Of a DNA stretch of 23,512 nt, positions 1-23,351 are shown in pieces. Origin of the DNA: a virus; the IMG/VR virus record IMGVR_UViG_3300021376_000362, positions 1-23,512 of that record; one strand, written 5' to 3'. Positions within the stretch are counted from its first letter, which is position 1. Every line of letters begins with the position of its first letter. Both the position numbers and the translations under genes were made by a program. The notes below the pieces were generated by a model. The model was not told the DNA's origin, did not search any database, and saw nothing but the letters and a program-made list of their open reading frames with translations.

Positions 1-3000
1 GAAATAGTTCTCAATCTTGCACTGATTGAGGTTTCAGATGGTACAAAACTCTCCACAACTGGAGTGATCGCTTCAAATGGAATATTATTTGTTGCAACTA
101 CCATATCACCGCCAACGTTCTTAGCATTATTCAGATATAATGCTTGGTTTGATGATGTCCTATCTTTACCAAGATTAATTGTTGTACCCCGAGAGTTGAC
201 AAAAGATGCACCAACATTAACCTCGATGTAATAACTATCTAAGGTAATATCTAAAGAATTATCAACATTACTAAATGCATGTTCAGTGTTTAATCTTCTT
301 AGAGAAATTCCAGCTATAGAATACTTTCTAAGTTTGGTTCCAATTTTATAGTTAACGCCTTTAGTTTTCTTATTGTATCCATCTCTTTCTTCTCTAGAGA
401 TATCTGTAAGGTTGCCAGCAGGCGCTGTAGTTGTTGTAACTCCAGTGTACTTAATGATTTCACCACTTCCAGGAACAATTGCATATCCAGGGTTTGATAC
501 TGATACAGGTAATCCTTCAAAAGTTTCAAAAGACGTAATGTTAGAGATTGGGAAGTTCACCGTAGTGTCCGCTGCAATCTCAGAAGTCAATGTTACAACA
601 CTAGTATCTGGTTTTATACCCCTGAAATTAACTCTGTTGTTTCTAGCGTGCATTCCGTGATTCTTATGATTTACTCTAATGTATCGTCCCTGACGAACAA
701 TGTCTGTCGTATCATCTGGATCACTCATCAGATTGAATTCTGTTCCAATCCCAACACCTTTAGAATTATTATTCAATAATTGATAAATCTTGTCTGAGGA
801 GTTCCAATCTCCTTGCATATCTTCAATCAAGATTGCATTGATTGCAGAAATAATACCAACGGAGAAGTTAACTTTATTTGCAAGTCCGATTGAAGCATTA
901 ACAGTATCGCCAACAGAAAATGCAGTTCCTCCAACTGTTACATTGACAGATGAAACTGTCCCATTAGTTACCACAATATTTGCCTTCAATCCAGATGCAA
1001 TATTGTTGGATTCGTATTCGGTATCTTCTAAAGTTCTGGAAATTTGTTTAAGTGTTACATTAGAATAAGTGTGAACTCCAACCGCAGGAGTTAATCCAAT
1101 TCCAGTATTCAAATAAGTGAGAGAAGTTGTTCCTACTCCAACAGCTCCATTAATCAGTACAATTCTACCAGTTGCGTTTGTGGTATCTTGAATAATTCTA
1201 GAGTTAGTTGTCAAAATTCCAGTATTAGTCAAAGGAGAACTAAAGACAAACAATGATTGTCTAGACAACATCAGTAATGGATTTTCGGAGAGAATATCTT
1301 GATTTAAAGATTCATAATCTAAATTACTATTGTAAAACTTAGCAACACCATTGTCAAATGTAAACTGAGCTTTGTATAGTTTAAACTTCAAATCTTCAGA
1401 TTGACTTGGAGTTGGTAATGATCCCAATGAAGATCTAAACAGACTTATAATCTGTGGTTGTCTTGAACTGATAACAATTGTTCTATTGTCAACAACTTCA
1501 GTTACAGTAACATTTTCTGTAATCTCCTTAGTAATTATTTCAGTTTCAAATTCTATTGGAGTAAGATCTTTTCCAGTTCCTTTGTCCTTTCTCTTTTTCT
1601 TCGATTTCTTCGAATCTTTATTTTGGAATCCAGGCTTCAGTTTTGGAGTCTTCTTCTCAAGTTTTATTGTTTTCTTTCTAGGCACAATTTTTGTGATATA
1701 AGTGAGAGACTCACGAATGTCTCTTTGCCCATCTTGTGATACAAAAACTTCATATGAGTCATCTGATGTAATTAAAGTTATTGCATACTGAGTTCCATTT
1801 CCTTGGAGATAAACTGGTGATGGGAATGTAAAACGAGTCGCTACAGTAGCATTATCAGAGGTATCAATTGAATCCGGCCTCTTTTGAACTTCTGAGAAGG
1901 GAAGCACAATTCTAGTTGGATATCCATTTTCAGTCGTTCTAATTTGAATAGTTACTGGAGTGTTGATTGCAGTTGCTAAATCATCTGCTCCACTCTTAAC
2001 ATCAGCATCTTTTCTTTCCGACTTTTTAGTTGGTTTTGCTTTAAAGAACAAATCAATTGAAGTTGCAAAAATTCCACCTCTTTCAATAACCTTAAAAGTT
2101 TGGAATAGTGGTTCTGGTTGCTTTGTAAGCATTGACTCTTGATTTTTGTCTCTTTCATCTTTAGATGAAATTACCAGATCATCTTTTAAGCTTGTCTTTT
2201 CAAAAACTCCATTTCTAACACTTACAACAGCACTTTGAGTTGTGTCTACTGTTCCAGTACTTTCAAATATAGTTTCTGCAATACTGATGTTTCGTGCACT
2301 TCTATTATTGATGTCTACAACGTTGGAAGAAGAACTGTTCATTATGATGAACGATTTTGCTCCACTTGTAAATCTAGGAACTCCAGATCCTTTCTTCCAT
2401 TTTGGAATATAGAATGATCCAATTAAATCTCCAAAGATATCAGTAATAAATCTAACTCTCTTGATTCTTGCTCTAGATTGACTATTTTGTCCGAGTAGAA
2501 TCATTCCAGATTCAATAAATCCATTGAATCTAGTTTCAGATGCAAGCCCTAAGGCAGATGTGTCAACGTTCAATAGAGTTGATGTTGAGGTATATTTAGA
2601 AATATTATTTCCTCCAGGGAAGTCTCCAATTTTACCTTGAGTATCATATGGTGCGTAAGTGTAGAGTTCATCTGGATCATAATATAATCCTTCTTTATGT
2701 CTTGGATGAGCTAGTCTAAATCTGATTGATGGATCATTCTCAACAATTTGATCTTTTTCATTGTCAGCAGCTTGTCCATAAACCGACTCACCAACTTCAA
2801 ATATTCCATTGAGCATTTCAATTTCAATGAATTTTGGAACACAATATTTGGTTACATTTTTACCATCAAAGAAAATAAAGAATTCTGTTCTGGGCTTAAG
2901 TCTCGTTGCATTGAACTCAACATTCCTACTTCTCATGTAGGTGATGAGATTCTTATTGATAAACTTCTTAGCTTTTGATTCTTTATAAGTTGCTGGTGAT

Positions 3001-7131: not shown

Positions 7132-8724
7132 TTAGAACTCTACTACAATTCTGATGTCTTCGGTTTGAGTGGCTGATCTTGGAATCGCAACTCTATTATC
7201 CACATAAAGAACGTCACCAGAAATAGGATCTATTTCTGGATTTGCAACTCCATTTACAAAACTCAATCCAAGTTTATATGTCCTATTATTTATTTGAGTT
7301 TGAGTAGCAGTAAAAGTCGTATCTATAGAAAGATCACTTCCAGTAAGAGCCCCATTGATAACAGTCGTTCCACCTACTCCAGGGGTTCCAGTGAATCTAT
7401 AGATGTTATACCCATAAGTTGAAGAAGCTAATCCAATAGGTTGGTAATACTTTAAAACTCCAGTTATCTTGTCATAAGAAACAACGTATCCATAAGCTGT
7501 AGATCCAACTCCAACAGTTTGAGAAATTAAATCGTCACCAGCATAGTTAGTTGTTGTAGTGCCAGCACCAGAGAACTTAATTCCACCCACTCCACTTACT
7601 ACTGATTGAGTTTGAAGTGTTGTTTGTGAACCATAAGTAGTTGGATTTTTGATAATTCCAATTCTGGAAAAATCATTTCCTGTTAAAAAATCTGGGTTAT
7701 CAACTGAGTTTGAGAAATTGGAAAAAACCATCACTCGGTAAGCTCCAGTTTCTCTATAAATGTCATATCCGTGGCCACCCTTGGGCGAAGTTATAACTTC
7801 AAAGTTAGCAATTGCACTTGTCCCAACACCAACGTTAACTAATCCATTTAGAGGGCCTCCTTCCTCTGAACCAGGAGCTCCTGGTTCAAATTGAATATTT
7901 GCAATTGTGTATTTTGATCCTGGATTTGTAATTGTTACGCTTGATACCTTACCTGAACTATCTACGGTGATTGTCGCTTTTCCACCATATCCATCCCCAA
8001 GAATAGGAACATTAGTCCAGGTTGTGTTACTTGGATATCCAATTCCAGCTCGATTTATTAACGCAATTTGAACTTCTCCAAGGACTGCATTATTTTTAAT
8101 TGATAATGATTCACCACTTTCTCCCCAATTATCTGGAACTGGAATGTAGTTGACTGAATCAAATTTAATAATTTCTTGGGGACTTAAAGTATAAAGATAT
8201 TTCCAGATATATCCATCTCCACTTATACCTGCGGATCTTGGATCAAGATCCGTAAAATCTGGTTCATCAACTGAAGGTTGTCCAGAAGGGTTTTCTGGAT
8301 TTTGCCCATTGTTTAAACAAATATAAACTTTATAATTTGAATTGATTACGATATAATCACAGTCATAAACTGAAGATGCATCAGTGATTGGTGATTTTTT
8401 GTCGATACTATAGTCAGGTTTGTACATTTCATATGTACGTCCAGACTCCCATTTTACTTTTCTAATAACTCTAGTTACATCTCCAGAGTTAACCTTTTTT
8501 AATGAAAGAATAGTTGGCCTATAAGTATTTTCTTCATAAAAATTATCAAGTGGTGGAGGAGGATTATCATTCCAATTTGGAATACCTCCACTATATGTGT
8601 TGGTTGGGTTTGATAATCCAATAAAAGTATAAAAAATATTTTGCGTGCTAGCTGCTCCTACAAAGTTATCAATAAAAGTAGAAGCATTTAATATTCTAAA
8701 TTGATCAGTAATAATTGCAGACAT
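7132..8724 (-). CDS. 8: Baseplate wedge protein gp8
   Basis: Protein of 530 residues resembling T4 gp8, the wedge component that binds on the outside of the gp6/gp7/gp53 core. Family landmarks: the N-terminal ITDQFRILNASTFIDNF followed by YTFIGLSNP, the central DGYIWKYLYTLSP (about residues 168-181), and a C-terminus ending TEDIRIVVEF that matches the TEEINILFTF style of T4 gp8. It is much longer than T4 gp8 (about 334 residues). The extra length includes an inserted beta segment at about 205-285 with the motif VTITNPGSKY, which also recurs in the two upstream proteins, and Gly/Thr-rich text at about 360-480. It has its own exact late promoter octamer at 8741-8748. The start at 8724 is the first ATG and gives the conserved N-terminus. 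No good Shine-Dalgarno sequence is visible (CTCTAAA before ATG). Confidence 0.87.
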   Translation of the reverse strand: MSAIITDQFRILNASTFIDNFVGAASTQNIFYTFIGLSNPTNTYSGGIPNWNDNPPPPLDNFYEENTYRPTILSLKKVNSGDVTRVIRKVKWESGRTYEMYKPDYSIDKKSPITDASSVYDCDYIVINSNYKVYICLNNGQNPENPSGQPSVDEPDFTDLDPRSAGISGDGYIWKYLYTLSPQEIIKFDSVNYIPVPDNWGESGESLSIKNNAVLGEVQIALINRAGIGYPSNTTWTNVPILGDGYGGKATITVDSSGKVSSVTITNPGSKYTIANIQFEPGAPGSEEGGPLNGLVNVGVGTSAIANFEVITSPKGGHGYDIYRETGAYRVMVFSNFSNSVDNPDFLTGNDFSRIGIIKNPTTYGSQTTLQTQSVVSGVGGIKFSGAGTTTTNYAGDDLISQTVGVGSTAYGYVVSYDKITGVLKYYQPIGLASSTYGYNIYRFTGTPGVGGTTVINGALTGSDLSIDTTFTATQTQINNRTYKLGLSFVNGVANPEIDPISGDVLYVDNRVAIPRSATQTEDIRIVVEF

Positions 8725-8755: not shown

Positions 8756-11700
8756 TTATGCTTCTAAAGGCACGATTGTGGTTCCAATTGAAGTAACTCT
8801 TATGACTTTAGGGGAAGTTGTTAAACCAGCTGATCCATTTAGATTTTCAGCATTTATTGCAATTGGATTAACTCTTTCATCAAAATCATATATCTTACCC
8901 CAAGAATAATCTCCATAACTATAATATGTAGTTGCAATACTTGTTAGCCCATTTACAGATTTTACATTTGATGTAACTGTAACGACTCCCGAAACTCCAT
9001 CAGTATTAACTTCATCAGCTCTAAACACACAATCAATGAAAGTAGTTGTGATTCCAATTGTTGATCCAGTTGATAAAATTGAAGTAACGCCTGATCCAAC
9101 GTTAGTGTTATATGTTACAAAATAATCTCCTGTAGAAATTCCTGTTCTTGAAGTTGTCAATCCACTATCAATCAATAATGAGAACTTTAGTGCAGGAGTT
9201 ATAGTAGATATCCCAGATGTTGTCGTTACTCCAGTTATTCTTCCATAATCACCTAAAAGCTTACAAGACTTGAACCTTTCAACCTCAAATCGTGGAGGAT
9301 CAATAAAAACTGATGGAGAAGAAGTAGAATCATAATTTCTACCTCCATCAGAAATTACAATAGAAGAAATTGTTCCATCAGATGTTACAATAGCTGTAGC
9401 AGCTGCACCAATTTTTTCTTTTTTATTGACTAAAGATTCATTGTCGCCAACAATTAAATAAGTATCTTTTACATTGAAATATTCAATATCATTTAGATTA
9501 GTTGTTGATCCAGAAGAAACTGCAGTCCAAGTTTTAAATTCACTGGATTTTGGTGATATGAAAATTGATCCTGAAGTTCCAACAATTATAGCAGTTTCTG
9601 AATTATCATCATAAACAACAGATTTCAAGTCCTCTGAAGTTGGAGCGGGAGTTATTTTGTAATAACTTCCATCATTCAAACGATTATTTGGGAAAGTTAA
9701 GATTAACCCATTATCACCAACAACAATAAATGGTATGGTTGAAATGCCTGTGTGAACAATTCCATTTAAGTTTTCTCCAGATAAAGTCGATAGGTGTATA
9801 GTTTGCCAAAATATACCTGGAGGATTACTTAACAACTCCTGATTAATTGAATATGCTGACGTTAAAATCATTGATGAGTTGCCAACAGCAACATATTGAG
9901 TCTTAGTTAAATTTTCACCAACATCATAAACTTGATTGACAATAACTTTGTTTATAGACTCAGTTGTATTAGTATCTCTTTTAACAAGATTGTTTCCAAG
10001 AATAGAGATTTGTGTTTCGTCGGAGACTTGATATGTAAAAACATTTCCAAATGATCCAACTCCAACAAAATGAGTATCTTCCGAAGAATATGTTATAGAG
10101 TTTAATGATCCAGTAAAACTATACGGAACAACAGGGTTTAAAATAGAACTATTATCAATACTTGATATCCCTAAAGAATTCCAAGAACTTAAATTTGTAC
10201 TTGTTGAAATATATCCTTCTGTTCCACCAACAATCCAAATAGAGTTGCCATAAGATACAGATTTTAACGACGTTGTAGATGATCCTATACTTGATGAAGT
10301 AAAGGAAACTAAGTTGGTTGTATATCTGATATTTAATGAAGATCCAACTGAAACAATTTTATTATCATCAGAATGGCTGTCATAATATGAAATTGATGAT
10401 GATGTTCCTATTTTTTGAAAAGTTTCAAATTCAACTCCTTCTTCAATTTCTCTTCTAGATATTGTAACCTCTGGGGGGTTTAATTGAGAATAACCACTTC
10501 CACTATTTTCAATTAAAATCGTAGACACTGTTCCACCTAATGAAACAATAGATGATAACTGTGCAACATCTCTTGGAATATCTTTAACAACTTCTACTTG
10601 AAGTTGAGATTCTGCAATATTATCTTCATCAAATAAACCAACACTTTCAACATATATCTCTGTTGATGTAGTACTAATACCTACTATAATACTTGAGGTT
10701 GGTTTAAATGATGTCAGAAGAGATTTTCTTGTTTTATAAATTTTTCTATTTGCAATGATAGCGTCTCTAGTTTGTTTTGTCCAATCTAATTTTCTATAAG
10801 CTTCTGGATCGGGATTTATTCCAAGTCCATCATATGTTGCAGTTCTCACTGTATTTTTATTTTCAATTCTATATACGCCTCTTGGTTCTTGATCAACTTC
10901 CTTAGAAGTCCTACCTTTAATTTTTACAATATCTCCAGCTTTAACAGTTTCTAATACTGTTCTTTGAATTGCATCTAAATCGGAAGCATAGTAAATGTAA
11001 ACATGCAAAGATTGATATTGATTTGGAGCTTCAGATAATACAAGGAAGTTATTGATTATTTTATAGTCAATGGTTGGTTTTTGTATGATTCCGTTTACTA
11101 GAACTAAAACGTTATTTTCTATTTTAAATCTTGCATCAGATTTATTGACTTCAAATCCTATTGGTTGATTAGTGTCCAAATCAACAATATTAAACACTCT
11201 TGTAAATCCATCAGGTGTTGCTCCGATTCCAGTTCTTTTGAGTTGTCCAAAAGAATAGAAATTAAAATTATCCGAATACGTATTATCAACTGTTATCGTA
11301 AATTTAGTTGATCCTGCGAGAGTTCCAATTCCACTTACACTTAATATATCACCCTTTTTATATCCAAATCCAATATTATCAAGATCAAGAGATATAATTG
11401 AACCTCCAGCCCCTACAGAAATACTTACTTTTGCTTCTTGCCCACTATTTGATCCACTAACATAAACTAATGGTAGATTAGTGTATCCATATGGGGGATC
11501 TACAATAACGTTTGGAACTGAAGTGGTAGTATAACCACTACCAGCGTTTGTAATCGTAAATCCAGTAACAAATCCAACAGAATTGCCAGTTCCAACTAAA
11601 GCTACGATAGATGCTCCAGAACCCACAGTTGATGCAATATTGACATCTGGAGATGTTAAGTATCCTCCTCCAGTTCCTCTTAATGTGATGCCTGTTATTA

Positions 11701-13054
11701 ATCCAGCAGCACTAACGGTTACGGTTGCAGCAGCTGCAACTTGCGATTGATATTTTGAACCTGGATCATAACTGAAATTTAAAATTTTTCCTGATTTTGG
11801 TAAATCATATTCAGTATTTCCGCTGAACGTTAGTGTTGTAATTCCAGTGTTAGCTACGATATCATAATCAATCACTGGTTTTTGAAACATTCCATTCAAT
11901 GATAAAATGCCATAGGCATTACCAGTCACTGTAGAAGTGCTCATTCCATAGTTCACATAATTTGATTTTAAATTAAAAGTTTTAGCAATTCCAACAAATT
12001 GATCTGATATATCATCAAAAACTACATTTTTATCATACTTTGTTTTGTAAAAAACTCTTCCAGAAAAACTTGATCCTTTGAATGGTGGTGTAGCAAAATG
12101 AATGTTTTCTTCGACGATATTGTAATTACCTTTATATAATTCAACTAAACTTCCACCAGTATGAGCAGTTGCAACTGTACCCATACTACCTCTTTCAACA
12201 GTGATTGAAGTAGTTGCTTGACTTACTAAAGTCACCTTCATTATTTCATCATCAATTGAGATAAAGTCATCTAAAAATACAGATGAAATTCCTGAAACTG
12301 GAACAATTGTTGTTGAGATTCCTAATGAAGTAGTCCCTAATCCTAGGGTGATTCCCTTTCTAAAAAGAGGTGATTGAACCAATCCATCAATAAGAATTAG
12401 AGTTCTAGTATTAGCATTTGTGCAAGAAAAATAATGAGTTGTACCAGACCCAACCATAGAAAAAGTTAATCCAATACCAGCATAAGCATTTTCTTCAGTT
12501 GAAGCTATTTTTAAAAATGATCTGGTGCTCTTTATTGCATAAACTGAGGATGGTAATATCGTAGTAGTTCCAACTCCAGGAATAGTAACAGACTGAATTT
12601 CAATCGGAGATCCATCATATTCATATGATATTCTTTCTCCAGTAGAAAAATCATGATTGATTTTTTTAAATAATAACTGTTCTCCCGATTCAGATTGTAT
12701 GTCTGTATTTAAAAAGGATTTTTTAAATATTGGTGTAGAATTATAGTTTGCAGTAAACGTAGAAACGCCAAGTATGGAATCTCCCTGAGACAAACTTCCA
12801 ATTCCAGTAAACTGTGAAGATATATTGTCTATAGGCAAGACTAAATTTGTTCTAAATTCAATAAAATCTTGAAGATCTCTTCCTTGAAAATTAATTAAAA
12901 TACTTTTCTTTTGAGAGTTTACTTCTTCGGTAACTAATTCAAAATTTGGTCTAGTGTAAAAACTAAAATCACTAAGTAGTTTAATTCTAATTTCGGCGTC
13001 AGATTCAGCTACTTTTGGTTTTAGCTTTGAAGTTCCTATTCCTAGACTTGACAT
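8756..13054 (-). CDS. Large virion structural protein with beta modules and propeller-like repeats
   Basis: Protein of 1432 residues, not recognised as a named T4 protein. The N-terminus (SSLGIGTSKLKPKVAES) starts without a signal peptide. Residues about 130-195 hold an HDFSTGERISY...FLKIAS module, and about 245-300 a module with SIDDEIMKV and ERGSMGTVATAHTGG. At least five short GSGY-type beta repeats follow, at about 447-470, 492-522, 550-575, 838-867 and 1224-1254 (for example ITNAGSGYTT, IENSGSGYSQ). Residues about 898-1210 contain repeated W/VGxxG blades such as SIWIVGGTEGYISTS, FVGVGSFGNVF and FIVVGDNGLIL, resembling BNR/YCF48-like beta-propellers. The gene lies between the gp7-like gene and gene 8, so a baseplate or short-fibre role is inferred. 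AAAGG at 13063-13067, eight bases before ATG, supports the start. The ATG follows the only sizeable intergenic gap (105 bases), which contains a late-promoter-like box. Confidence 0.82.
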   Translation of the reverse strand: MSSLGIGTSKLKPKVAESDAEIRIKLLSDFSFYTRPNFELVTEEVNSQKKSILINFQGRDLQDFIEFRTNLVLPIDNISSQFTGIGSLSQGDSILGVSTFTANYNSTPIFKKSFLNTDIQSESGEQLLFKKINHDFSTGERISYEYDGSPIEIQSVTIPGVGTTTILPSSVYAIKSTRSFLKIASTEENAYAGIGLTFSMVGSGTTHYFSCTNANTRTLILIDGLVQSPLFRKGITLGLGTTSLGISTTIVPVSGISSVFLDDFISIDDEIMKVTLVSQATTSITVERGSMGTVATAHTGGSLVELYKGNYNIVEENIHFATPPFKGSSFSGRVFYKTKYDKNVVFDDISDQFVGIAKTFNLKSNYVNYGMSTSTVTGNAYGILSLNGMFQKPVIDYDIVANTGITTLTFSGNTEYDLPKSGKILNFSYDPGSKYQSQVAAAATVTVSAAGLITGITLRGTGGGYLTSPDVNIASTVGSGASIVALVGTGNSVGFVTGFTITNAGSGYTTTSVPNVIVDPPYGYTNLPLVYVSGSNSGQEAKVSISVGAGGSIISLDLDNIGFGYKKGDILSVSGIGTLAGSTKFTITVDNTYSDNFNFYSFGQLKRTGIGATPDGFTRVFNIVDLDTNQPIGFEVNKSDARFKIENNVLVLVNGIIQKPTIDYKIINNFLVLSEAPNQYQSLHVYIYYASDLDAIQRTVLETVKAGDIVKIKGRTSKEVDQEPRGVYRIENKNTVRTATYDGLGINPDPEAYRKLDWTKQTRDAIIANRKIYKTRKSLLTSFKPTSSIIVGISTTSTEIYVESVGLFDEDNIAESQLQVEVVKDIPRDVAQLSSIVSLGGTVSTILIENSGSGYSQLNPPEVTISRREIEEGVEFETFQKIGTSSSISYYDSHSDDNKIVSVGSSLNIRYTTNLVSFTSSSIGSSTTSLKSVSYGNSIWIVGGTEGYISTSTNLSSWNSLGISSIDNSSILNPVVPYSFTGSLNSITYSSEDTHFVGVGSFGNVFTYQVSDETQISILGNNLVKRDTNTTESINKVIVNQVYDVGENLTKTQYVAVGNSSMILTSAYSINQELLSNPPGIFWQTIHLSTLSGENLNGIVHTGISTIPFIVVGDNGLILTFPNNRLNDGSYYKITPAPTSEDLKSVVYDDNSETAIIVGTSGSIFISPKSSEFKTWTAVSSGSTTNLNDIEYFNVKDTYLIVGDNESLVNKKEKIGAAATAIVTSDGTISSIVISDGGRNYDSTSSPSVFIDPPRFEVERFKSCKLLGDYGRITGVTTTSGISTITPALKFSLLIDSGLTTSRTGISTGDYFVTYNTNVGSGVTSILSTGSTIGITTTFIDCVFRADEVNTDGVSGVVTVTSNVKSVNGLTSIATTYYSYGDYSWGKIYDFDERVNPIAINAENLNGSAGLTTSPKVIRVTSIGTTIVPLEA

Positions 13055-13159: not shown

Positions 13160-16100
13160 CTATAGATCATCATCTCCACCACCATCTCCACCATCATCAT
13201 CTCCACCACCATCTCCACCATCATCATCTCCATCATCATCTCCACCATCATCATCTCCACCACCATCTCCACCATCATCATCTCCATCATCATCTCCACC
13301 ATCATCATCTCCACCATCATCATCTCCACCATCATCATCTCCACCATCATCATCTCCTCCATCATCATCTCCACCATCATCATCTCCATCATCATCTCCA
13401 CCACCACCGCCACCATCATCATCTCCTCCACCACCATCTCCTCCACCACCATCTCCTCCACCACCATCTCCACCACCATCAGGTGAATTATCATCAGTCG
13501 GAGAATGGATCACAGGAAAGGTATCAGTAGGTTCTGATACGATGATAACGCTTCCGAAAGACTTAAATCCTGATGTATGATTTAAAGAATCTACTGTTGA
13601 TTTCCATTCAGTTGGAGAAAGAGATGTCTTAATGTCATATGACATCTTTTGATAATAAACATTATCTGATAATTTTTGATTTGATACACTCAATTTACCA
13701 TAATCTTTTTCCCAACCTATACTATTTACATATGATGAATTGACTACAGCATCTGCAGTTGATGTGTTTATTATATCTATAATCCCTCTTTGCAGAGACA
13801 AATTACCAAATACAGAGTCTCCTGGTTCAATTACAAATTCGGAGAATTGATTCAGATATCTAACCTTTAAAACTTTACCATCCCAACCATTGTCTGAAGT
13901 GCAAATGAAATCTTCTTTTTGCCCATTTGGTTTTGTGATTGTAATAATTTCTCCATTGGTAAAATCGCCTAAAACATAGTTTGGAGTAAATCTAGCAAGA
14001 TCATTTTTTAGGATGACAAATCCATTAGACTTATCTTCATTAAAATCTCCTGGATCTGTACCTGTGATTAGATAACTGATTGTTTTAGCAGCACTGCTTA
14101 CTCCAACTACCGAGAAGTTTTTATAATCATTTAATGATGAATTATAGGTAGCAATACCCGATGAAGATTCAATGCCTTCAACAAATATTTCATCTCCAAC
14201 TTTTATTTGATTAGCAATTTGTTCAGAGCTTAGATTAAGATCTAAAGTTAAAGTTGCAGTGTCTGTTCCGCTGTTAAACTCAGCTAACTCAACAATAAAT
14301 CCATTTCCATTATCTATAGGAATAATTGAAATGTCTCTTGACAGATCATTTCTATTTTGAATAATTGTAACTTCAGAGACTGATTGTGCAGTTAATTTAG
14401 TTTCAAATACTAATCCAGATATTTCTTTCTTATTTTTGTTTAAAGCGATAAGAGTCGGAGGATCATAATAACCTCTTCCACCAGTTTCAATTCCAATTGA
14501 ATCTAGTTTATAATTATCTCTAATTCGAAGACTGATTGGGAATTCTAAAATTGGTTTTACAGTATAATCTGAAGGAATTTCAAAAGTTGGTTTATAGACT
14601 TCATAACGATTTATAGCTCCAATTTTATTTGACTCTACAGAAAGTTGTGCTCCATATCCATATTCAGTATCAATTAAGTCAATTGTTGGTAGTCTTAAAT
14701 ATCCAACACCTCCAAATGAAACATCAATCTTATCGATTGGGCCTATATCTGTTTCCGAACTTGTGGTATAATTTAATAATGAGGTATTTGTTGAACTATA
14801 GGATACTGTTTCAAAGTCGTTTTGTGGTAAAACTGCAATATTAAACTGAGATGATGCATGATTGGTATCAAAAGCTAATCCAGTTAGATTGAACTTAGAG
14901 TTTGATAGTACTATCTTAGAATAGTTTGAAACCTCAGTATCTGGATAAAACTCAGCTACGTCTGAAGATATAGTCTTATCTTTTAAGTTTATTGAATAAT
15001 ATAACCCCTTCTCTACCAGATTTGTATCCAAGGCAATATAAGATTCAGAAGTTTCTATTTCAAATTTGGAATTTTCGAAATACTTTCCACTTCCTACAAA
15101 TTGATTTTTAAAATCTTTATCTTCATAGAATTTAAACTCATAGTTACTTAATGAAGGATCCGATAAATCAAATTTTAAAATATTTCCTTTTACAACATCA
15201 ATTTTTGGATTAATATATGACATTGTATGGATTCCAGATCCAGTTGTTGTCAATTTAATAAATTCATAGGAATTTGTTGATCCAAACAATGTATCGGACA
15301 GTCTAATTTTATCTTCATCAATTTTTATGATATAATATTCTCTATTATTAACGAGTGGTAAAGCTGGAGAATTTGATTGGTAAACAATCTTACTTCCATT
15401 TGATAAACCATGATTTCTTATCATGAAAGATGAACCTGAAGATCCAGTGGTAATTTCAGAAGAACTTATAGTGTTTATGCCAACAATTAAGTTTTGATTA
15501 ATTGAATCAAACTTGACAACTTTAGTTATTGTTTCATTCGGGATAACGTTTAATGTTACCTCATCATTTTCAGTTAATCCGTGAGTTTCTCCCAAAGAAA
15601 CAGTTGCATAAGTTCTTTGAATATCTCCTATGAGACTTTCTCCAAAGTTAGTTATAAATTGGTGTTTTGCACCACTACCACCCGTGACAAAGTACAATCC
15701 GGCACCAGTGGCTGCCAATCCGACTCTAGTTGTACTCAATCCAATATGATCTATTCCTTTTTCGATCACAAACACAGTTGACGCTAAAGAAACCACCTCA
15801 TTAAGATTAATACTGTTAGAAACACTCACAGCAATTCCTGCACCAGAGTTGTATAAAAGCTTGTCACCAGTGGCTAATCCGTGATTTGGTAAATAAATCC
15901 TTTGTTCTTTTAAGAATCTTCTTCTCTGATTAGAAGTACTACCTATTCCAACACTATAGTTAACATAAATGCCAGTGGTGCCTAAACCTACAGAATCTTC
16001 TGGATCAAAGAATAAAGATCTCTTATTTAATATTGTTTTGTTAAAAAGAATCGTTGGTAGATCAAAACTAAACTCGGTTTGTTCAACTTCAAGAATATCT

Positions 16101-19100
16101 CCAGTTGTAATCGCAATTCCTGAGGAAGCAGGTGAACCTGGATTTTTAGGATCATAACCTCTCAAAACTCTTAATCTATTATTAATTTGATCAACATTCA
16201 ACACCAACATTGATTCTGATTTGATTCCTACAACATCATTAACCTTGAAACTCTTGTTCAAATTTACGGCAGTTAGTTCTATGAATGTTGTTAATCCAGT
16301 AAAACCAGAATAACTTGGTACATTAGTTGAAATACCTGAGGTTATCTTTGGTACTGAAATATAATGAGATCCTATAATTTGTTTAAAGTATGCGGAATCT
16401 GTAGTGTCATTTTCTGGAATCTCGTCATCAGAACGAATAGAATTTATTCTTATGACATCTCCCGTCGATAAATTATGCGGAATAGAGGTAATTCCAGTAA
16501 CAGTAGCTCCTTTATAATCAAACTTGACATTATAGAAAAATGTATTAACTCCTACTACTGAAGTTATTGATTTACCTACAATTGAAGAAACGTATGCTTC
16601 ACACCCACTTCCCCCAGTGTTTGTATCGTCAAATTTTATAAATTCATTTACTTTATAATTTGTTCCTGGAGTAATGACTTTAATTGTGTCAACTTTATTT
16701 CCTGAAACTACTATACTCTTAACATTAAAAATTTCTTCTTTAGGTGACGTAGTTAAATCTAAAAACTCATAATTATTTGAATCATAGGGGGTTAAATTTT
16801 TAGTTAAATCAGTATCTTTGGATTCTAACAAGTTTTGATCCCAAGAATTTTTAAAATTACTTGTATCAACAAAATTTTTAAATTTGCTGCCTATAATATA
16901 TGGATAAACTGGTTCTCTACTGTTTTCGTATGCTCCTGATCCATTGAGAGATGATATCGGACAAAAATACGCATAAGTTCCTTTTGGAAATTCTGGAGTG
17001 ATGCCAAACTTGCCATTACACTCATCAAGATCGCCCGAGTTTACGAATTCATAATCATTATTAAAAAATCCAAGTGGAAATTCACTTATTGGAGGCCTGT
17101 TTTGTTTTAAAACTGATATATATCCAGATTCCATTCTTTTAACTTCAAATGCACTAGTTGGAGATGAATATCCATATGGGCCATAAATTGGATTCCCATC
17201 ATACGCCCAACCTAAAATTGGAGAGTGATTAGGTGATTCAACTTCCTGATAACCATTATCAGTTTTTTCAATGTTGTCACCCAATTTTTCTCTTAAGTTT
17301 CTAGATACTGTGTAATTAATATACCTATTTCCATAATTTTGATTTAAGGATTCTAAAATAACTCCATCATCAGAAGATGTAAGTTGTTTTTTGTTTAATT
17401 CAAATGAATTTACATTCCACGATTTTATTTTTGTTCTAAAGGATATTGATGTGGAACTAGCAGCTCCAACAGGAACCACTGTAATCGTAGTATTTCCTCT
17501 AACATATCCAATTCCAGAGTCTACAATTTGTAAAGATGTAATCACTCCGTCCTGTAAAGTTGGTTTTAAAACAGCGCCAGATCCGATACCCGATACAATT
17601 ACTTCTGGAGTTCCCACATAGTTTGATCCACCTTTTTTGATGACGTAATCAACCAATCTTCCTTCATCATTTAATATTGGATTAATTCTGGCTCCAGATC
17701 CAGAATTTATCCAAATATTAGGTTGTTTTTCATAATTAAAGATATCTTCAGATCCATATGAAGATCCTGCATCATATATGAATACACTTTCTGCTTTACC
17801 AAAACATTTTACTCTTTGATATAAAGTTGTACTACCAGCCGCAGTCATTCCAGATATTTCAGCAATGATATCTGGATATTTAAAAATGTGTGTTCCTACA
17901 CCAACGGTTGATATTTTAATATATTTTTCCTGATCTAAAAATTGAGTTGTATCTAAAGTTTCAAATGAAGTTGTAAAACCAACATCATTAGAATATGATG
18001 TTGTTGCAACAGAAATTTTAGATTCTGTCAATCTAAACCTATCATCATCAATTTTTAGAATGTAATATTGAACTGATGAAGAAATACCAGCTATTGATGT
18101 TCCTGATCCAATTTGAGAATATTCGATTAAATCTCCTGTCTCAAAGTTATGTTTTTTGGCAAAAATATAATGTTCGTGAGTGTTAACTCCAGTTCTAATA
18201 GTGCTCGTTTCCAAATAATCATTTGGTGGATATTTGTTACTATCAATTTTTATTTTTTTATTTCTATAGTTTGTTCCAGGATCAACAATTCTGATATCTG
18301 CCAAAACAGAAATTGGTTCATTAAGAACTAACTTTTGAATTCCAGATCCATGAGAAGTAAAATCTACTGTATTGATTCCCAAAATAGCATCATTATTTGT
18401 ATAATGAAGTTTAATAGATCTTTCGCTCACAACTCCAACAAAATATTGACTATTTTCAGCTAAAGTGACACCAATACCAACAGATGTAGATCCTACTCCT
18501 ACAGATCTAAGAACTCCAGGAGAAGTTTGAAAATTTGAAGAATATAAAACTGAGTCTCCAAGAACTAAATTGTGTTTTTGTTCAAAACTGATAATATCGG
18601 AAATTGTGTTAACACCAACTGAAGTGGCGAAAAAATCTAAGAAATACTCTTGATCATAAAGAGTTACTCTTGCATCTAATAAAGCTCCATTTCCATTACC
18701 ACCAATAATCTTAGCTTTTGGATCTTCTAAAAATCTAAATCCCCTATTATCAATTAAAACTTCTTTAATAGAACCAGAGACGTTAAGATGAGCATCTATT
18801 CCAGATCCATTTTCATCTTCAATAACTAAGACGGGAGGATTAATGACATTAATATCATTTAAAGATTTTTTAATTTCAATCTCTTCAATATTACCATAGT
18901 AAATGTTATATGGAGATTTTGAATCAAGAGCTTCCACTCCGTTTAAAAATATTCCAATAGATCCATTGACTCCAGGTACTTCATTTTCAACAATCACTGG
19001 TTGAGGAACAACTGGAAACTTTTTAAGTAAATTTTGTGATGTTAAATTCTTTCCATATAGAGTTGATGGAGTTAACTTATGTAATTGGCCGGTAGTAGAG

Positions 19101-21052
19101 GAATAAGTTATCTCAATAACAGAATTTTTATATATAGCAGAACGATTCAGACAAAGAGAAATTCTATCACCGTCAATTTTTTTAATAAAATATTTTCTTT
19201 TGTTTTCTAAATTATCAATAGGAACCGTTGCCCCATCACCAACCTCGTATGTTACTAATTCTCCACTAAAGTAGTTATGGTTTGGCAGATAAATTGTAAA
19301 CGTAGTGGTATCAATATGCGTTTTTTGGAAAATTTTTGAATTGTCTTGTGTTTCAATTAGAGAATCTGTAAGACATGAAGATGCTACATATACATCATTT
19401 CCATCAAAATAAGTATTTTGTACTTCAGTAACGTATACATCAACGCCACTATAAATTGAACTAGAAGCTTTTTTAATTTTTTTTCTTAAAAAGATATTAC
19501 TTGTAGAGATTCCACTTAACTCTGAACTATCTAAATTTACAATAACTCCATCCGAAATAGAAGTTACACTCCCCTCAATAGTTTCAATTTCTGTAGTGCC
19601 TGGTTTTTTAACATTTACAATAACTTTATCCTTTTTATAAAGATTAATATAATTATTGAGTTTAAACTCACATTGATTTGAAGATAAAATATTGTATGAA
19701 GTTATCTCATATTTTTTAGCGATGTTGTATATCCAAGTTGTGAAAATTGGATCAACAGAGTTGATGTATCCAAAAGACTTGATATTTATTTTGTCATCTG
19801 GATTTAAATATCTTGTATTTGGATTTTTTATATCTGATACTATATTTGAAACTGCAAAATATTTTGTTTTGTCTTCTATTGTACCATAAAGTAAATTATC
19901 ATCATAGATTTCCTCTCCATGTCCTAGAGATTCTCCAAGTGATGATGTAGATCCTAAACCAATACATCCTATAAATTGATTATTAGTTTTTGATGAATAA
20001 GTAAAACTCTCTAACCCTTTAGAAGTTTTAATATAGAGTTTTCCACTATCAGAAAATCCTACTGTAGAGTCAACAGTAATTGATGTTGAATTTATTGGAG
20101 ATTCTAAAACTGCTTTTGTTACAGCTGTATTTGTAAATGTTCCCGATAAAGTTTCTAAGTCAAATCCTAATCTACTATAAAACTTTCCATTAATTGATCT
20201 TGGAACATCAGTAAAGAAATAAACAATTCCTTCTGCACCATTGTTCCCATCTTTAGGATTTTGTTTTAAAGTGACTCCTTTACTTATTTTACGAATATCG
20301 CCAGTTAAATCCTCAACAATCAAGAATTTGTTTTCAACCCATTGTCCATCAGAAGGTGTAAACAGTTGAGTTGCTGGTTTCGTAATAGAAATATCAACCC
20401 CAAATAGAATATCAAAAAGAATTCTAAATGAACTATCTGTACCTTTTGACTTATAAAAATCTTTTGCGTATTGTGTTAAGTTTGAAACATTAATTTCAGT
20501 ATTAATCTTTACATTTTCAAATCCTGGGGTATATTGATATTTAAAGTCTTCAAAGAATTTTTTTAAAAATAAGTTGCTGAGGTTTTCTACAACATCCCCT
20601 TGATTGTGATCTGAAGATACTGTGTCTAAAAATACAAATTCATCTGGGTTATTAACTTCATTAAGACTATCGACTCCACAAAATCCTCTAATGCATCCAA
20701 CAAAAGAAGTTGAAGTGATTCCAGTATAAGTAATGATCTCATCGTTTATTTTCAACAAACCATAAGTTTTTGGCCAACCTGCAGTTGAAGTAACCGAGAT
20801 CGTTGTATCATAAAAAGTAACGTCTGCAGAAAGAGTAGTTGACTCTGTTAAATTCGTATGAGTAAATGCCTCAATATTTGTATAGAAGTTTATATTCTCA
20901 AGAATGTCTATAGGAGAACCTTGATATTCCTGAGAAATATAGTACTGCCTTAAAAATTCTTCAAAATTAGGATTATTTTCTAGAAAGTACTCTGGAATCT
21001 GACTTTCTACTATCTGACTAATTTTAACCTTATGTGGAATTTTTTCTTGCAT
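13160..21052 (-). CDS. Giant gp7-like baseplate wedge protein with YHYH-type domain and Asp/Gly tail
   Basis: Protein of 2630 residues directly after gene 6, where T4 has gene 7. Residues 1-60 and about 165-225 (VESQIPEYFLENNPNFEEFL, then FYKSKGTDSSFRILFDILFG at 198-217) resemble the C-terminal part of T4 gp7. So do residues about 2455-2500 (SLSPTEWKSTV, then HTSGFKSFGSVIIV). Between them lie at least seven copies of an NHGLxTGDxxxY...YYxIKIDxDRxRL module, eight or more GxGY beta repeats and a YHYH-type domain at about 1195-1395 (WAYDGNPIYGPYG at 1282, LDECNGKFG, FPKGTYAYFCP). Residues 2525-2629 are only Asp and Gly. No signal peptide or membrane segment. The ATG overlaps the gene 6 stop by one base (TAATG), so translation is probably coupled. 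The role as wedge core plus an enlarged surface part is inferred. T4 gp7 is about 1032 residues. The T4 comparison is from memory. Confidence 0.85.
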   Translation of the reverse strand: MQEKIPHKVKISQIVESQIPEYFLENNPNFEEFLRQYYISQEYQGSPIDILENINFYTNIEAFTHTNLTESTTLSADVTFYDTTISVTSTAGWPKTYGLLKINDEIITYTGITSTSFVGCIRGFCGVDSLNEVNNPDEFVFLDTVSSDHNQGDVVENLSNLFLKKFFEDFKYQYTPGFENVKINTEINVSNLTQYAKDFYKSKGTDSSFRILFDILFGVDISITKPATQLFTPSDGQWVENKFLIVEDLTGDIRKISKGVTLKQNPKDGNNGAEGIVYFFTDVPRSINGKFYSRLGFDLETLSGTFTNTAVTKAVLESPINSTSITVDSTVGFSDSGKLYIKTSKGLESFTYSSKTNNQFIGCIGLGSTSSLGESLGHGEEIYDDNLLYGTIEDKTKYFAVSNIVSDIKNPNTRYLNPDDKINIKSFGYINSVDPIFTTWIYNIAKKYEITSYNILSSNQCEFKLNNYINLYKKDKVIVNVKKPGTTEIETIEGSVTSISDGVIVNLDSSELSGISTSNIFLRKKIKKASSSIYSGVDVYVTEVQNTYFDGNDVYVASSCLTDSLIETQDNSKIFQKTHIDTTTFTIYLPNHNYFSGELVTYEVGDGATVPIDNLENKRKYFIKKIDGDRISLCLNRSAIYKNSVIEITYSSTTGQLHKLTPSTLYGKNLTSQNLLKKFPVVPQPVIVENEVPGVNGSIGIFLNGVEALDSKSPYNIYYGNIEEIEIKKSLNDINVINPPVLVIEDENGSGIDAHLNVSGSIKEVLIDNRGFRFLEDPKAKIIGGNGNGALLDARVTLYDQEYFLDFFATSVGVNTISDIISFEQKHNLVLGDSVLYSSNFQTSPGVLRSVGVGSTSVGIGVTLAENSQYFVGVVSERSIKLHYTNNDAILGINTVDFTSHGSGIQKLVLNEPISVLADIRIVDPGTNYRNKKIKIDSNKYPPNDYLETSTIRTGVNTHEHYIFAKKHNFETGDLIEYSQIGSGTSIAGISSSVQYYILKIDDDRFRLTESKISVATTSYSNDVGFTTSFETLDTTQFLDQEKYIKISTVGVGTHIFKYPDIIAEISGMTAAGSTTLYQRVKCFGKAESVFIYDAGSSYGSEDIFNYEKQPNIWINSGSGARINPILNDEGRLVDYVIKKGGSNYVGTPEVIVSGIGSGAVLKPTLQDGVITSLQIVDSGIGYVRGNTTITVVPVGAASSTSISFRTKIKSWNVNSFELNKKQLTSSDDGVILESLNQNYGNRYINYTVSRNLREKLGDNIEKTDNGYQEVESPNHSPILGWAYDGNPIYGPYGYSSPTSAFEVKRMESGYISVLKQNRPPISEFPLGFFNNDYEFVNSGDLDECNGKFGITPEFPKGTYAYFCPISSLNGSGAYENSREPVYPYIIGSKFKNFVDTSNFKNSWDQNLLESKDTDLTKNLTPYDSNNYEFLDLTTSPKEEIFNVKSIVVSGNKVDTIKVITPGTNYKVNEFIKFDDTNTGGSGCEAYVSSIVGKSITSVVGVNTFFYNVKFDYKGATVTGITSIPHNLSTGDVIRINSIRSDDEIPENDTTDSAYFKQIIGSHYISVPKITSGISTNVPSYSGFTGLTTFIELTAVNLNKSFKVNDVVGIKSESMLVLNVDQINNRLRVLRGYDPKNPGSPASSGIAITTGDILEVEQTEFSFDLPTILFNKTILNKRSLFFDPEDSVGLGTTGIYVNYSVGIGSTSNQRRRFLKEQRIYLPNHGLATGDKLLYNSGAGIAVSVSNSINLNEVVSLASTVFVIEKGIDHIGLSTTRVGLAATGAGLYFVTGGSGAKHQFITNFGESLIGDIQRTYATVSLGETHGLTENDEVTLNVIPNETITKVVKFDSINQNLIVGINTISSSEITTGSSGSSFMIRNHGLSNGSKIVYQSNSPALPLVNNREYYIIKIDEDKIRLSDTLFGSTNSYEFIKLTTTGSGIHTMSYINPKIDVVKGNILKFDLSDPSLSNYEFKFYEDKDFKNQFVGSGKYFENSKFEIETSESYIALDTNLVEKGLYYSINLKDKTISSDVAEFYPDTEVSNYSKIVLSNSKFNLTGLAFDTNHASSQFNIAVLPQNDFETVSYSSTNTSLLNYTTSSETDIGPIDKIDVSFGGVGYLRLPTIDLIDTEYGYGAQLSVESNKIGAINRYEVYKPTFEIPSDYTVKPILEFPISLRIRDNYKLDSIGIETGGRGYYDPPTLIALNKNKKEISGLVFETKLTAQSVSEVTIIQNRNDLSRDISIIPIDNGNGFIVELAEFNSGTDTATLTLDLNLSSEQIANQIKVGDEIFVEGIESSSGIATYNSSLNDYKNFSVVGVSSAAKTISYLITGTDPGDFNEDKSNGFVILKNDLARFTPNYVLGDFTNGEIITITKPNGQKEDFICTSDNGWDGKVLKVRYLNQFSEFVIEPGDSVFGNLSLQRGIIDIINTSTADAVVNSSYVNSIGWEKDYGKLSVSNQKLSDNVYYQKMSYDIKTSLSPTEWKSTVDSLNHTSGFKSFGSVIIVSEPTDTFPVIHSPTDDNSPDGGGDGGGGDGGGGDGGGGDDDGGGGGGDDDGDDDGGDDDGGDDDGGDDDGGDDDGGDDDGGDDDGDDDGGDGGGDDDGGDDDGDDDGGDGGGDDDGGDGGGDDDL
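13166..13480 (-). repeat. Tandem repeat coding for the Asp/Gly tail
   Basis: About 315 bases of GGN and GAT codons. The clearest unit is 15 bases, coding GGDDD, present six times in a row. Larger units are visible too: a block reading GGDGGGDDDGGDDDGDDD partly recurs toward the 3' end. The start-proximal part is Gly-rich (DGGGG units) and the stop-proximal part Asp-rich. Such runs are prone to length change by slippage, so copy number may vary between close relatives or be misassembled. Confidence 0.92.
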
Positions 21053-22944
21053 TATTTTCTGATATATTGAGTTTCTGTCGAATCGATATAACTAGACGTT
21101 GAGATGTGTCTCACTCCAGAAGAACTAGAACCAGAATCAATCAGATCAGGCACTATATCTATGTAGTCGCGTCTCAGAACCATTCTCAAATAAAGTTCTT
21201 TTAATCCAATAATATCATAGGATTCTGGAACTGCCTCAATTTCAATGATTCCACCTGATTTAGTTGTAGATGTGATTTGAATGGTATTGATCAAAATTTC
21301 TCCAGTTTTATAATTTACTTTTCCAATATTACTATCAACAATTACTGGAACGTTATCTCTCAATTTAAAAATAAACAGTGTTCCTTGAGTTTCATTTGTT
21401 TTTTTATCAGCAAAATATAGAGTTCCAGTTACTCCGGCAATCTTAAATCCAGTAGATCTAATATTATGACTATTTTTATAAACGTGAAACGCATTACCAA
21501 AACATAATTCATAATCGGCTTCCAGTTGAAGAGCAACTTGAAGTTGTCTATACATCAGTAATTTTGTAATATTTGATGTAATTGCCTTGTCAGCGCTGTC
21601 AATTAAACTTACAACTTTACTATACTTAATTCTTCCTCCAAACTTGTTTATGTCAGAATTATTTGCATATTTTCGTAATGATCTTATAACCTTATCTTCA
21701 ATTACTATTGTATCGCTGCCAACAGTTTGATTGTAGTATACTGTAGATAATACTTCTACAAACAAGAACTTCAAGTCAATTATTTCAGGAGAAACTCCGG
21801 CTACAGAATATGATTTTAATTTCTCCTTTAGTTCTTTTTTTACGAAGTTTGATAAGTAAAACCCATTTCTAGGTTTTAGGGTGATAAACACTTTACCGTA
21901 CTGTGGAGGATCTAAATCTTCTCCACCAAAAGCTGTAACGGATTCAGTATTTGGAAAAATCTCAGATAAAATAGCTTCATAGTCTTGAGTTGTTACTGCT
22001 CTGTATTGAGAAGCATAAACCTTCGGAGCAAACTTTTTGATAGATTCTACACTTTCAATAAAATCTCCATTTTCAGCTTTTGAAATTGTAGTAATTGATG
22101 GAATTACAGATGTGACTGGAGAATCTTCATTGTCTTTTAGAACTCCAATAAAACTAAACTGTTGAATTCCATTACCTTTAGAACCACCACTAACAATATA
22201 AGTACATTCAATTTCATTGTTATTTAAAAGTTTTCTACCAAACTTACCATCACCAAATACAAGTTCATATTTTTCGTCAGAAATCTCATATAAGTAATAA
22301 ATTTCACTTGAAGATGTTGTTGAGAAAATATTGGAGACTTGAAAATATTCTCGATAACTTGTGGTATTTTTGTCAAGAGAAACTTTTACTCTTAATGTGC
22401 TAGTATCAACAAAAGGATTTGGTAAAATAAACTTCTGATCTTTTTGATCTAGATTGACTGTGAAGTTAGTAGTTACATAAGTGCCTTCATAAATTTCAAC
22501 ATTATCAAAGAAAGCAATTCCATTATTGACTGGAACAATAATGTCTTGTGGGATACAGAACGTAACACTACTATTTTTAGATGAACCTGTTGCAACTAAT
22601 CCAGCTTTAAGAGTTAACGATACTGCATTTGTATCAGTTCCTAAGTTGACACTAAAATCAATTGTTGCTCTTGCAGATCTTCTTGATCTTGGAACATATC
22701 CAATATTTCTTGCTAAGGAAACTACATTTTCCCTAAGTGTTGAAGTTTCCAAAAATGACTCATTCGCCACCATATTGGCATTGTATGAGTTAATATAAGT
22801 ATTATACGCTAAAATATCAATCAAAACTGAGAGGTTTGATCCTTCAAAATCAAAATCGGTAAACTTCCCATTTGCCCTGAGATAGTTTTTAATACTCAGT
22901 TTGATCTGATCAAAATCTAGGTTAGTATACTGAGTAAATGCCAT
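21052..22944 (-). CDS. 6: Baseplate wedge protein gp6
   Basis: Protein of 630 residues, close to T4 gp6 (660). gp6 forms the dimeric backbone ring of the inner baseplate and clamps gp7, gp25 and gp53. Recognised parts: the N-terminal FDFEGSNLSVLIDILAYNT (about 33-51) with NESFLETSTLRENVVSLARN and GYVPRS, all typical of gp6; a baseplate J-like centre with LVFGDGKFGRKL (about 230) and YRAVTTQDYEAILSEIFP (about 313-330); and PPQYGKVFITLKP (about 347-359). The C-terminal 200 residues are beta-rich and end in a Ser-rich stretch (IDSGSSSSGVRHISTSSY). The start has a good Shine-Dalgarno AAGG (22952-22955) seven bases before ATG. It lies two bases after gene 25 and overlaps the next gene by one base, so the three are very likely one transcript. 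No disruption is seen. Confidence 0.95.
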   Translation of the reverse strand: MAFTQYTNLDFDQIKLSIKNYLRANGKFTDFDFEGSNLSVLIDILAYNTYINSYNANMVANESFLETSTLRENVVSLARNIGYVPRSRRSARATIDFSVNLGTDTNAVSLTLKAGLVATGSSKNSSVTFCIPQDIIVPVNNGIAFFDNVEIYEGTYVTTNFTVNLDQKDQKFILPNPFVDTSTLRVKVSLDKNTTSYREYFQVSNIFSTTSSSEIYYLYEISDEKYELVFGDGKFGRKLLNNNEIECTYIVSGGSKGNGIQQFSFIGVLKDNEDSPVTSVIPSITTISKAENGDFIESVESIKKFAPKVYASQYRAVTTQDYEAILSEIFPNTESVTAFGGEDLDPPQYGKVFITLKPRNGFYLSNFVKKELKEKLKSYSVAGVSPEIIDLKFLFVEVLSTVYYNQTVGSDTIVIEDKVIRSLRKYANNSDINKFGGRIKYSKVVSLIDSADKAITSNITKLLMYRQLQVALQLEADYELCFGNAFHVYKNSHNIRSTGFKIAGVTGTLYFADKKTNETQGTLFIFKLRDNVPVIVDSNIGKVNYKTGEILINTIQITSTTKSGGIIEIEAVPESYDIIGLKELYLRMVLRRDYIDIVPDLIDSGSSSSGVRHISTSSYIDSTETQYIRK

Positions 22945-22946
22945 TA

Positions 22947-23351
22947 TTATGCCTTAGTTGATTGAAGAATAAATGATAAGTTTTGAGGAACAACCTCAGA
23001 ACCAAGAAGATCATATATGATTTCTACATTACATTCGTTTGTGTCTGAAGATATTACAGAAGTCACAGACTTAACTTTAATTCTTGGTTCAAAATTTTCT
23101 AATACCAATTTAATCGTTTGTTCAATTCCGATATCTAAAGTTATATCTGCAAGGCTGAACAAAGCATTGCGAATTGATGAACCAATCAACGGGTTAAAAA
23201 ATCTATCTCCATTATTTGTAAAAATAAGGTTTCTGATAGATCTTTTAACCGCATCTTCATTTTTAATCAGCAAAATATCGTTTGATATCGGATTTCTTTT
23301 GAAAGAAAGACTAATATCGACAAATTTCTTATCGACTCTTTGAATCGGCAT
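22947..23351 (-). CDS. 25: Baseplate wedge protein gp25 (lysozyme-like fold family)
   Basis: Protein of 134 residues, the usual size of T4 gp25 (132). gp25 is the small inner-wedge protein of contractile tails, related to TssE of type VI secretion, and sits at the junction of wedge and sheath. The family signature is complete: VDISLSFKRNPISNDILLIK at 11-30, AVKRSIRNLIFTNNGDRFFNP at 34-54, and the EPR triad at 88-90 (LENFEPRIKV) that is conserved in the family for contact with gp6. Despite its family name, it is a structural protein, and no lysozyme catalytic set is evident. It is preceded by an exact late promoter octamer at 23375-23382. The Shine-Dalgarno is weak or distant (AGGA at 23366-23369, 14 bases from ATG). 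It is the first gene after this promoter in the series 25 - 6 - gp7-like. Confidence 0.95.
   Translation of the reverse strand: MPIQRVDKKFVDISLSFKRNPISNDILLIKNEDAVKRSIRNLIFTNNGDRFFNPLIGSSIRNALFSLADITLDIGIEQTIKLVLENFEPRIKVKSVTSVISSDTNECNVEIIYDLLGSEVVPQNLSFILQSTKA
22952..22955 (-). promoter_or_regulatory. Ribosome binding site of gene 6
   Basis: AAGG on the minus strand, seven bases before the ATG of gene 6 and inside the last codons of gene 25. It is among the clearest Shine-Dalgarno sequences in the window and fixes the start at 22944. Confidence 0.65.

Follow-up and report, generated by a model that had tools for sequence, protein, structure and literature searches.

Organization of the baseplate operon

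The DNA analyzed here, referred to as the window, is a stretch of 23,512 nt from record IMGVR_UViG_3300021376_000362, which is a 23.5-kb virus fragment. It is the baseplate operon of a T4-like cyanophage, carried on the minus strand in the order gp25, gp6, P0001, P0003, gp8 and a DUF4815 protein (P0006), the last encoded by its own gene. The genes under study are:

22947..23351, minus strand: gp25, preceding gp6 (PF04965, E 1.9e-11)
21052..22944, minus strand: gp6, the wedge partner, directly upstream of P0001 (PF21379, E 2.5e-17)
13160..21052, minus strand: P0001, the probable gp7 orthologue, 2,630 aa (phrog_2885, baseplate wedge subunit, E 0)
8756..13054, minus strand: P0003, 1,432 aa, between P0001 and gp8 (phrog_2885, 2932-3349)
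7132..8724, minus strand: gp8 (PF09215, E 4.9e-9), downstream of P0001 past one further large gene, P0003

The original prediction had regarded a position between genes 6 and 8 as fitting gp7. This was borne out, with gp6 upstream and gp8 downstream, P0003 intervening before the latter. P0001 is a genuine ORF. It is 93.6% identical to a gene of the cultured Synechococcus phage DSL-LC02, and relatives were found in 465 phage records, 93 of which match at least 80% of the query in one place. Since many of the 60 records listed among these 465 are already labeled baseplate wedge initiator or gp7, the identity of the gene is not new; GenBank names many relatives gp7 and the family is known. The cyanophage ‘baseplate wedge initiator’ proteins (phrog_2885; P-SSM2, S-SM2, DSL-LC02) are homologous to P0001 over nearly the full length.

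Core elements of gp7 near both termini

Three core elements were placed in P0001:

20873..21034, minus strand: candidate core element h1, aa 7-60, counterpart of T4 gp7 ~644-678 (Gp7_helical), from the h1 model and from bridging families by hhalign
20324..20509, minus strand: core element c2, aa 182-243, with the FYxSKGT helix, counterpart of T4 gp7 717-774, from profile matches and an out-of-sample model (T4 724-758)
13517..13681, minus strand: core element c3, aa 2458-2512, counterpart of T4 gp7 865-888, from profile matches and the c3 model

The gp7-like text that had been predicted near both ends of P0001 (residues 14-60, 198-222 and 2455-2500) falls on h1, c2 and c3. A blastp search of T4 gp7 against P0001 alone was marginal (E 0.018), and profiles were therefore needed. 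Profiles of 87 N-terminal and 49 C-terminal cyanophage sequences were compared with eight T4-type gp7s; AS-zj (L094), whose gp7 ORF lacks annotation, was excluded from the T4 set. By profile-profile comparison both ends of P0001 matched gp7, in the T4 order and at the corresponding T4 positions, and neither outcome that the original prediction had named as refuting it was observed. At the N-terminal end residues 192-297 aligned to T4 727-813 with a probability of 97.3 (E 2e-11), while the C-terminal end aligned to T4 866-888 with a probability of only 29.8 (p 5.6e-4). Against 200 column-shuffled T4 profiles, the observed scores were 94.6 versus a shuffle maximum of 27.0 for the N end and 36.2 versus 23.9 for the C end.

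When the N-end profile was searched against the whole PDB, gp7s were the only phage matches (E 1.1e-7 and 1.2e-6); profile 190-311 matched gp7 of entry 9f4a at 726-829 (E 1.1e-7). A toxin chain in the third row (E 0.36) was taken as a chance match. Using the C-end profile against 177,635 PDB sequences, gp7s ranked first and second at residues 847-889 and 860-888, with E values of only 0.32 and 0.37. A plain sequence search of the PDB with the whole of P0001 gave 19 rows at E values up to 10; none was a phage baseplate protein, and many were Gly-rich linkers.

Models of c2 and c3 built without T4-type sequences each found all eight T4-type gp7s, c2 with iE values of 6e-13 to 3e-11 and c3 with 6.5e-5 to 9.4e-4, the latter between the proteins' own residues 853 and 993. 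Thirteen negatives, comprising nine reversed gp7s and four further proteins from the window, gave a best iE of 2.3 for c2, 0.11 for c3 and 0.12 for h1. Alone against T4 gp7, h1 remained below significance (E 0.32), and a wider h1 model was significant in one of the eight T4-type gp7s, fell at the right place but within noise in six and matched elsewhere in one. By way of bridging families, hhalign gave alignments to T4 638-841 and 645-758, residues 4-215 of the phiM7 group aligning to T4 638-841 with a probability of 96.8. The homology of h1 is thus suggested mainly by these families.

The Pfam family PF23786 (‘Phage baseplate wedge subunit’) scored 26.7 bits on the N end of P0001, slightly below the cut-off of 27. 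The Pfam models of T4 gp7, Gp7_helical (T4 643-689), Gp7_5th and Gp7_6th, did not match P0001, and neither P0001 nor P0003 had a Pfam match to T4 domain VI (T4 920-1012) or to the N-terminal domains of T4 gp7. We would not treat the latter domains as defining gp7, because the gp7 orthologue of phage XM1 has only 242 residues. Four PHROG entries also matched the gp7 N end, namely phrog_3465 (‘head closure Hc2’), phrog_701, phrog_4406 and phrog_19630 (‘head and packaging’). Three of the four match the C end too, and all are probably misfiled gp7s.

A graded series of gap sizes

The prediction of T4 order at a distance of ~2,200 residues also held. The gap between c2 and c3 is 2,214 residues in P0001 versus 86-90 in the eight T4-type gp7s. 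T4 gp7 (PDB 5IV5, 5HX2) and the Straboviridae gp7s resemble P0001 in that c2, the beginning of domain V and c3 follow one another in this order and that the gene comes after gp6. However, T4 gp7 has ~640 residues ahead of the core and 90 between c2 and c3, whereas P0001 has almost none ahead and 2,214 between.

Natural gp7s form a graded series of c2-c3 spacing. The c2 model used for this series contained six T4-type sequences, the separate model without them being the out-of-sample one described above. L025, an incomplete ORF in which c3 (E 5.8) was placed before c2, was omitted. Above the T4-type value, gaps were 257 in ACP17 and IME-SM1, 328 in L269, 384-420 in the Melnitz group, 422 in phiM9, 424-428 in L257, L263 and L264, 618-831 in further relatives, 1,640 in S-CREM2 and 1,989-2,308 across the cyanophage set that includes the window. 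Core-model coordinates gave ~2,350 for P-HM2, ~2,715 for syn9 and ~2,825 for ACG-2014d.

In natural gp7s of 482-1,301 aa, c2 and c3 are 257-831 residues apart. Such proteins include those of Methylophilales phage Melnitz-3 (896 aa), Sinorhizobium phages phiM7 (1,006 aa) and phiM9 (903 aa), Stenotrophomonas phage IME-SM1 (503 aa) and Acidovorax phage ACP17 (482 aa). These five are natural short versions that carry both core ends in order and differ from P0001 in a c2-c3 gap of 257-798. Both ends of the cyanophage profile matched the Melnitz, phiM7, ACP17 and L257 groups with probabilities of 95.7-99.4. By BLAST, the two ends of P0001 matched Melnitz-3 with E values of 6e-9 and 5e-6, and phiM7 with 3e-8 and 8e-8. 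The insertion is not peculiar to P0001; all 12 other named cyanophages examined carry it as well.

Position of the large insertion relative to domain V

Domain V of T4 gp7 spans residues 766-861 according to Pfam (Gp7_5th), between c2 and c3. Its putative parts in P0001 are:

20099..20350, minus strand: N-terminal part of split domain V, aa ~235-318, T4 gp7 ~766-833 (profile match to the gp7 of 9f4a; Pfam Gp7_5th)
13694..13756, minus strand: C-terminal edge of split domain V, aa ~2433-2453 (hhalign to ~Melnitz 600-617)

The N-end profile runs beyond c2 as far as T4-type residue 829, and therefore roughly the first two thirds of domain V precede the insertion. An AlphaFold2 (AF2) model of the Melnitz-3 protein from IMG/VR (L104, 896 aa) was of moderate confidence (pLDDT 60.9, pTM 0.41). 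With Foldseek, its top three matches among 350,542 PDB chains were gp7s (E 2.7e-5, 1.3e-3 and 0.016). With VIA-align, 89 residues distributed across model positions 235..619 fitted T4 765-853 (Z 8.8, rmsd 3.1), and 9f4a gave Z 8.9. gp7 chains occupied rows 1, 2 and 4 of the VIA-align list; row 3, the T4 sheath protein gp18, fitted another part of the model. Among unrelated barrels, 1woo fitted 238-320 alone (74 residues), while 8phv and 4zgq extended to 611-612. The c3 helix was modeled with low confidence (pLDDT ~57).

One alignment submitted to folding comprised 44 of 48 listed sequences. An AF2 model of the P0001 N-terminal part was also of moderate confidence (pLDDT 74.3, pTM 0.46). The top Foldseek match of this N-terminal model was T4 gp7, although weak (E 0.015, rmsd 22.9). 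gp7 was missing from the VIA-align list of this model, which is uninformative since a small inserted domain (insertion A, 69-161) fills the list.

The insertion most likely lies within domain V, around T4 830-846. On the simplest reading of the models, the last ~15 residues of domain V would be supplied from the far side of the insertion, a figure that is an estimate rather than a residue-by-residue alignment. Domain V would then be discontinuous, its C-terminal edge in P0001 being placed through the Melnitz relative. The original prediction that the wedge core folds from both ends of the chain thus stands insofar as the alignment of T4 domain V (765-853) to the Melnitz-3 model covers both sides of the insertion, but it has to be amended in that domain V is itself split.

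Content of the insertions

Two insertions and one recognizable domain were delineated within P0001:

20570..20848, minus strand: small insertion A between h1 and c2, a beta domain of aa 69-161 (AF2 pLDDT 70-93 over most of it)
13757..20098, minus strand: large insertion B, aa ~319-2432, ~2,110 residues (no T4 gp7 match; modules common to P0003)
16961..17248, minus strand: YHYH-family domain inside insertion B, aa 1269-1364 (PF14240, 84.9 bits versus a cut-off of 25)

Nothing else in insertion B scored above the Pfam cut-off. The letters Y-H-Y-H are absent from P0001. Near the end of the PF14240 match, at 1358, stands GTYAYF, which we take to be the place of the YHYH motif. Because these letters are lacking, the domain is assigned to the YHYH family by its profile, and no function of the motif is claimed.

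Neither insertion B nor P0003 matched T4 gp7 by hhalign, so that the idea of the N-terminal domains of T4 gp7 having been relocated into the insert or the tail is unsupported. Parts of insertion B do match parts of P0003, with a probability of 96.9 over 339 columns, and match the shorter insertion of the Melnitz group more weakly (probabilities 87 and 79). P0003 116-520 shares a module with gp7 ~810-1195, and P0003 92-573 shares one with gp7 1686-2139. The common modules may be a sign of domain duplication. They suggest that repeated modules enlarged gp7 in two places, one within domain V and the other behind c3.

A third insertion site lies between h1 and c2, where ~120 residues are present in P0001 and ~630 in syn9 and ACG-2014d. 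Using VIA-align, insertion A gave Z scores of 9.0 with the phage Chi tail tip, 8.9 with the JBD30 baseplate and 9.2 with a chain of a VP1 entry; F1-ATPase barrels scored Z ~6.

The chain end behind c3

We also compared the chain ends of cyanophage gp7s. In 10 of the 12 other named cyanophages examined, gp7 runs 1,428-3,186 residues beyond the core. P0003 matches the C-terminal parts of all seven fused gp7s with which it was compared and, judged by these matches, appears to correspond to the extension that many relatives carry fused to the C-terminus of gp7. A single gene spans P0001 and P0003 in P-SSM2, S-8S56, Bellamy, S-SM2, S-T4, P-TIM68 and ACG-2014f. Together with P-HM2, these phages have fused chains of 3,891-5,195 aa, whereas the window has two genes. 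The homologues in ACG-2014d (L274 3302-23758, 6,818 aa) and syn9 (L275 5763-23993, 6,076 aa) carry h1, c2 and c3 in order on one fused chain; the window instead splits after c3, with a Gly/Asp tail. The ACG-2014d and syn9 genes are labeled ‘structural protein’, with the note ‘putative fiber’ for syn9.

Other chains end close to c3. The DSL-LC02 gene ends at residue 2,514, right behind c3, and the L011 ORF stops one residue past it. S-CREM2 gp7 has c3 at 1877-1927 of 1,937 aa, its ORF ending 10 residues past c3. A natural chain end behind c3 agrees with c3 as the closing element of the core. The window gp7 resembles DSL-LC02 in its chain end but has an additional tail:

13163..13483, minus strand: Gly/Asp-rich C-terminal tail, aa 2524-2630, outside the core (15/27-bp tandem repeat; DSL-LC02 lacks it)

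A similar Gly/Asp-rich tail ends gp15 (tail sheath stabilizer, phrog_227) in L277 7631-7931. L279, taken as the continuation of L277 because the terminase small subunit comes next as in DSL-LC02, closes at 1-270 with the same DNA as the window tail (GATGATGATCTATAGAAGCC). The comparison also took in L280 13205-13804. DSL-LC02, which is ~94% identical, has neither the gp7 nor the gp15 tail. The same type of tract seems to have been added recently to two virion-protein genes. Past the stop codon of the tail, at window 13055-13162, another frame encodes a collagen-like GSTGSRGPR stretch, as seen by eye; it may be what is left of a longer insert.

DISCUSSION

We consider it very probable that cyanophage P0001 is orthologous to gp7 of T4, the scaffold of the baseplate wedge, with a core formed by both ends of the chain. 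For c2 and c3, homology as well as order and spacing were demonstrated, as was the graded series; in the model of a relative, domain V was rebuilt from both sides of the insertion. What is new here, as far as the literature search reaches, would be the layout of the split core and the graded series, the question at the outset having been layout and not identity. No report of either was found by title or abstract opening, in a search mainly of openly accessible journals. The available text of PMC6630229 and PMC2984593 holds nothing on gp7 layout, and neither ‘gp7’ nor ‘ORF101’ occurs in the available main text of the S-TIM4 host-adaptation paper (PMC6224464), whose data were therefore left unused. 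In its available part, PMC3037559 (Sullivan 2010) lists gp7 under the non-cyanophage core and is silent on a split, while that of PMC6300606 draws just a general T6SS parallel. The ‘gp7’ in the available text of the A-1(L) tail paper (PMC10966104) is a neck protein and was set aside.

Because the window comes from a 23.5-kb virus fragment, an ORF of this length could be suspected of being an assembly chimera. The same gene in cultured DSL-LC02, a second contig (L280) identical across 2,510 residues and the long single-place matches noted above rule this out for practical purposes. A different objection comes from PMC7029224, where T4 gp7 is reported absent in ‘both groups of phages’ (pelagi- and cyanomyophages, to judge by the context) and VrlC is proposed in its place. 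VrlC would by gene order be the DUF4815 protein, here P0006, and P0001 would be an unrelated virion protein. The Pfam gp7 domain models, which do not match P0001, agree with such an absence. However, c2 and c3 were matched out of sample in all eight T4-type gp7s, P0001 has the operon position of gp7, and P0006 is coded separately; the profile results contradict a replacement, which we regard as very unlikely. The presence of gp7 contradicts, for cyanophages, that statement of PMC7029224. Somewhat less improbable, yet still improbable, is that both ends derive from gp7 while the C-terminal piece forms a small domain of its own, apart from the N-terminal core. The low confidence of the c3 helix in the Melnitz-3 model and the shortness of the C-end match to T4 (23-43 residues) are in its favor. 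In that same model, though, domain V spans both sides of the insertion, and the two pieces are neighbors within a single T4 chain. Furthermore, among 80 environmental ORFs examined, the C-terminal motif occurs exactly once in each of the 44 that have at least 2,433 aa, the other 36 (at most 1,974 aa) ending before it.

We return to a core made from both ends of one chain. In this architecture h1, c2, domain V and c3 would pair with two copies of gp6, an assembly that we infer. The ~2,110 residues inserted into the domain V loop adjoining c3 would form successive domains, including one of the YHYH family, with both ends of the insert anchored in the wedge. A second appendage would follow c3 in many relatives and be a separate protein, P0003, in this phage. 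The original prediction had the insert looping out of the baseplate, a putative position. On the proposed path, the insert would exit the wedge between segments that flank the gp6-gp7 junction. By reason of this exit, the insert most likely carries or docks host-contact parts, such as fibers, and it could pass their movement on to the wedge.

XM1 offers an analogy. According to PMC10457771, domain I of its gp7 orthologue (gp17) comprises residues 1-79 and 107-133, and two sets of tail spikes attach to the 80-106 loop and the C-terminus. A discontinuous domain with an insertion loop and a C-terminal tail holding spikes is thus alike by description, in a protein of only 242 aa. By this analogy, the cyanophage insertion and C-terminal appendage would occupy the two attachment sites of the wedge. 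The gp7 orthologue of S-CREM2 is present in the virion, where 91 unique peptides were detected by mass spectrometry (PMC10665884).

The main rival to a host-contact role accepts the split core and makes the insert a structural spacer or a second baseplate layer; we give it a substantial chance, short of even. Receptor-binding tips are often highly variable. Mean identity to seven cyanophages was 16-41% per 100-residue block of the insert versus 42-45% in the first 200 residues, so no stretch of the insert is as variable as such tips often are. VrlC-type two-layer baseplates have moreover been proposed for these phages (PMC7029224). Against a purely structural insert stands the XM1 insertion loop, which at a comparable site holds tail spikes (PMC10457771).

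gp7 is a scaffold part of contractile tails. Reported absent from marine T4-like phages in PMC7029224, it was nevertheless found, enlarged and hard to recognize. With gp7 recognized as split and grown at defined sites, a single comparable part list becomes possible, from small contractile phages to the 6,818-residue gp7 of ACG-2014d. It is possible, though we hold it only tentatively and as somewhat doubtful, that in marine T4-like phages gp7 took over the periphery of the baseplate, domain V serving as the socket for thousands of host-contact residues. Host sensing would then be a covalent part of the scaffold, replacing the separate peripheral proteins of T4, and could exert a direct pull on the gp6-gp7 junction, the trigger of contraction.
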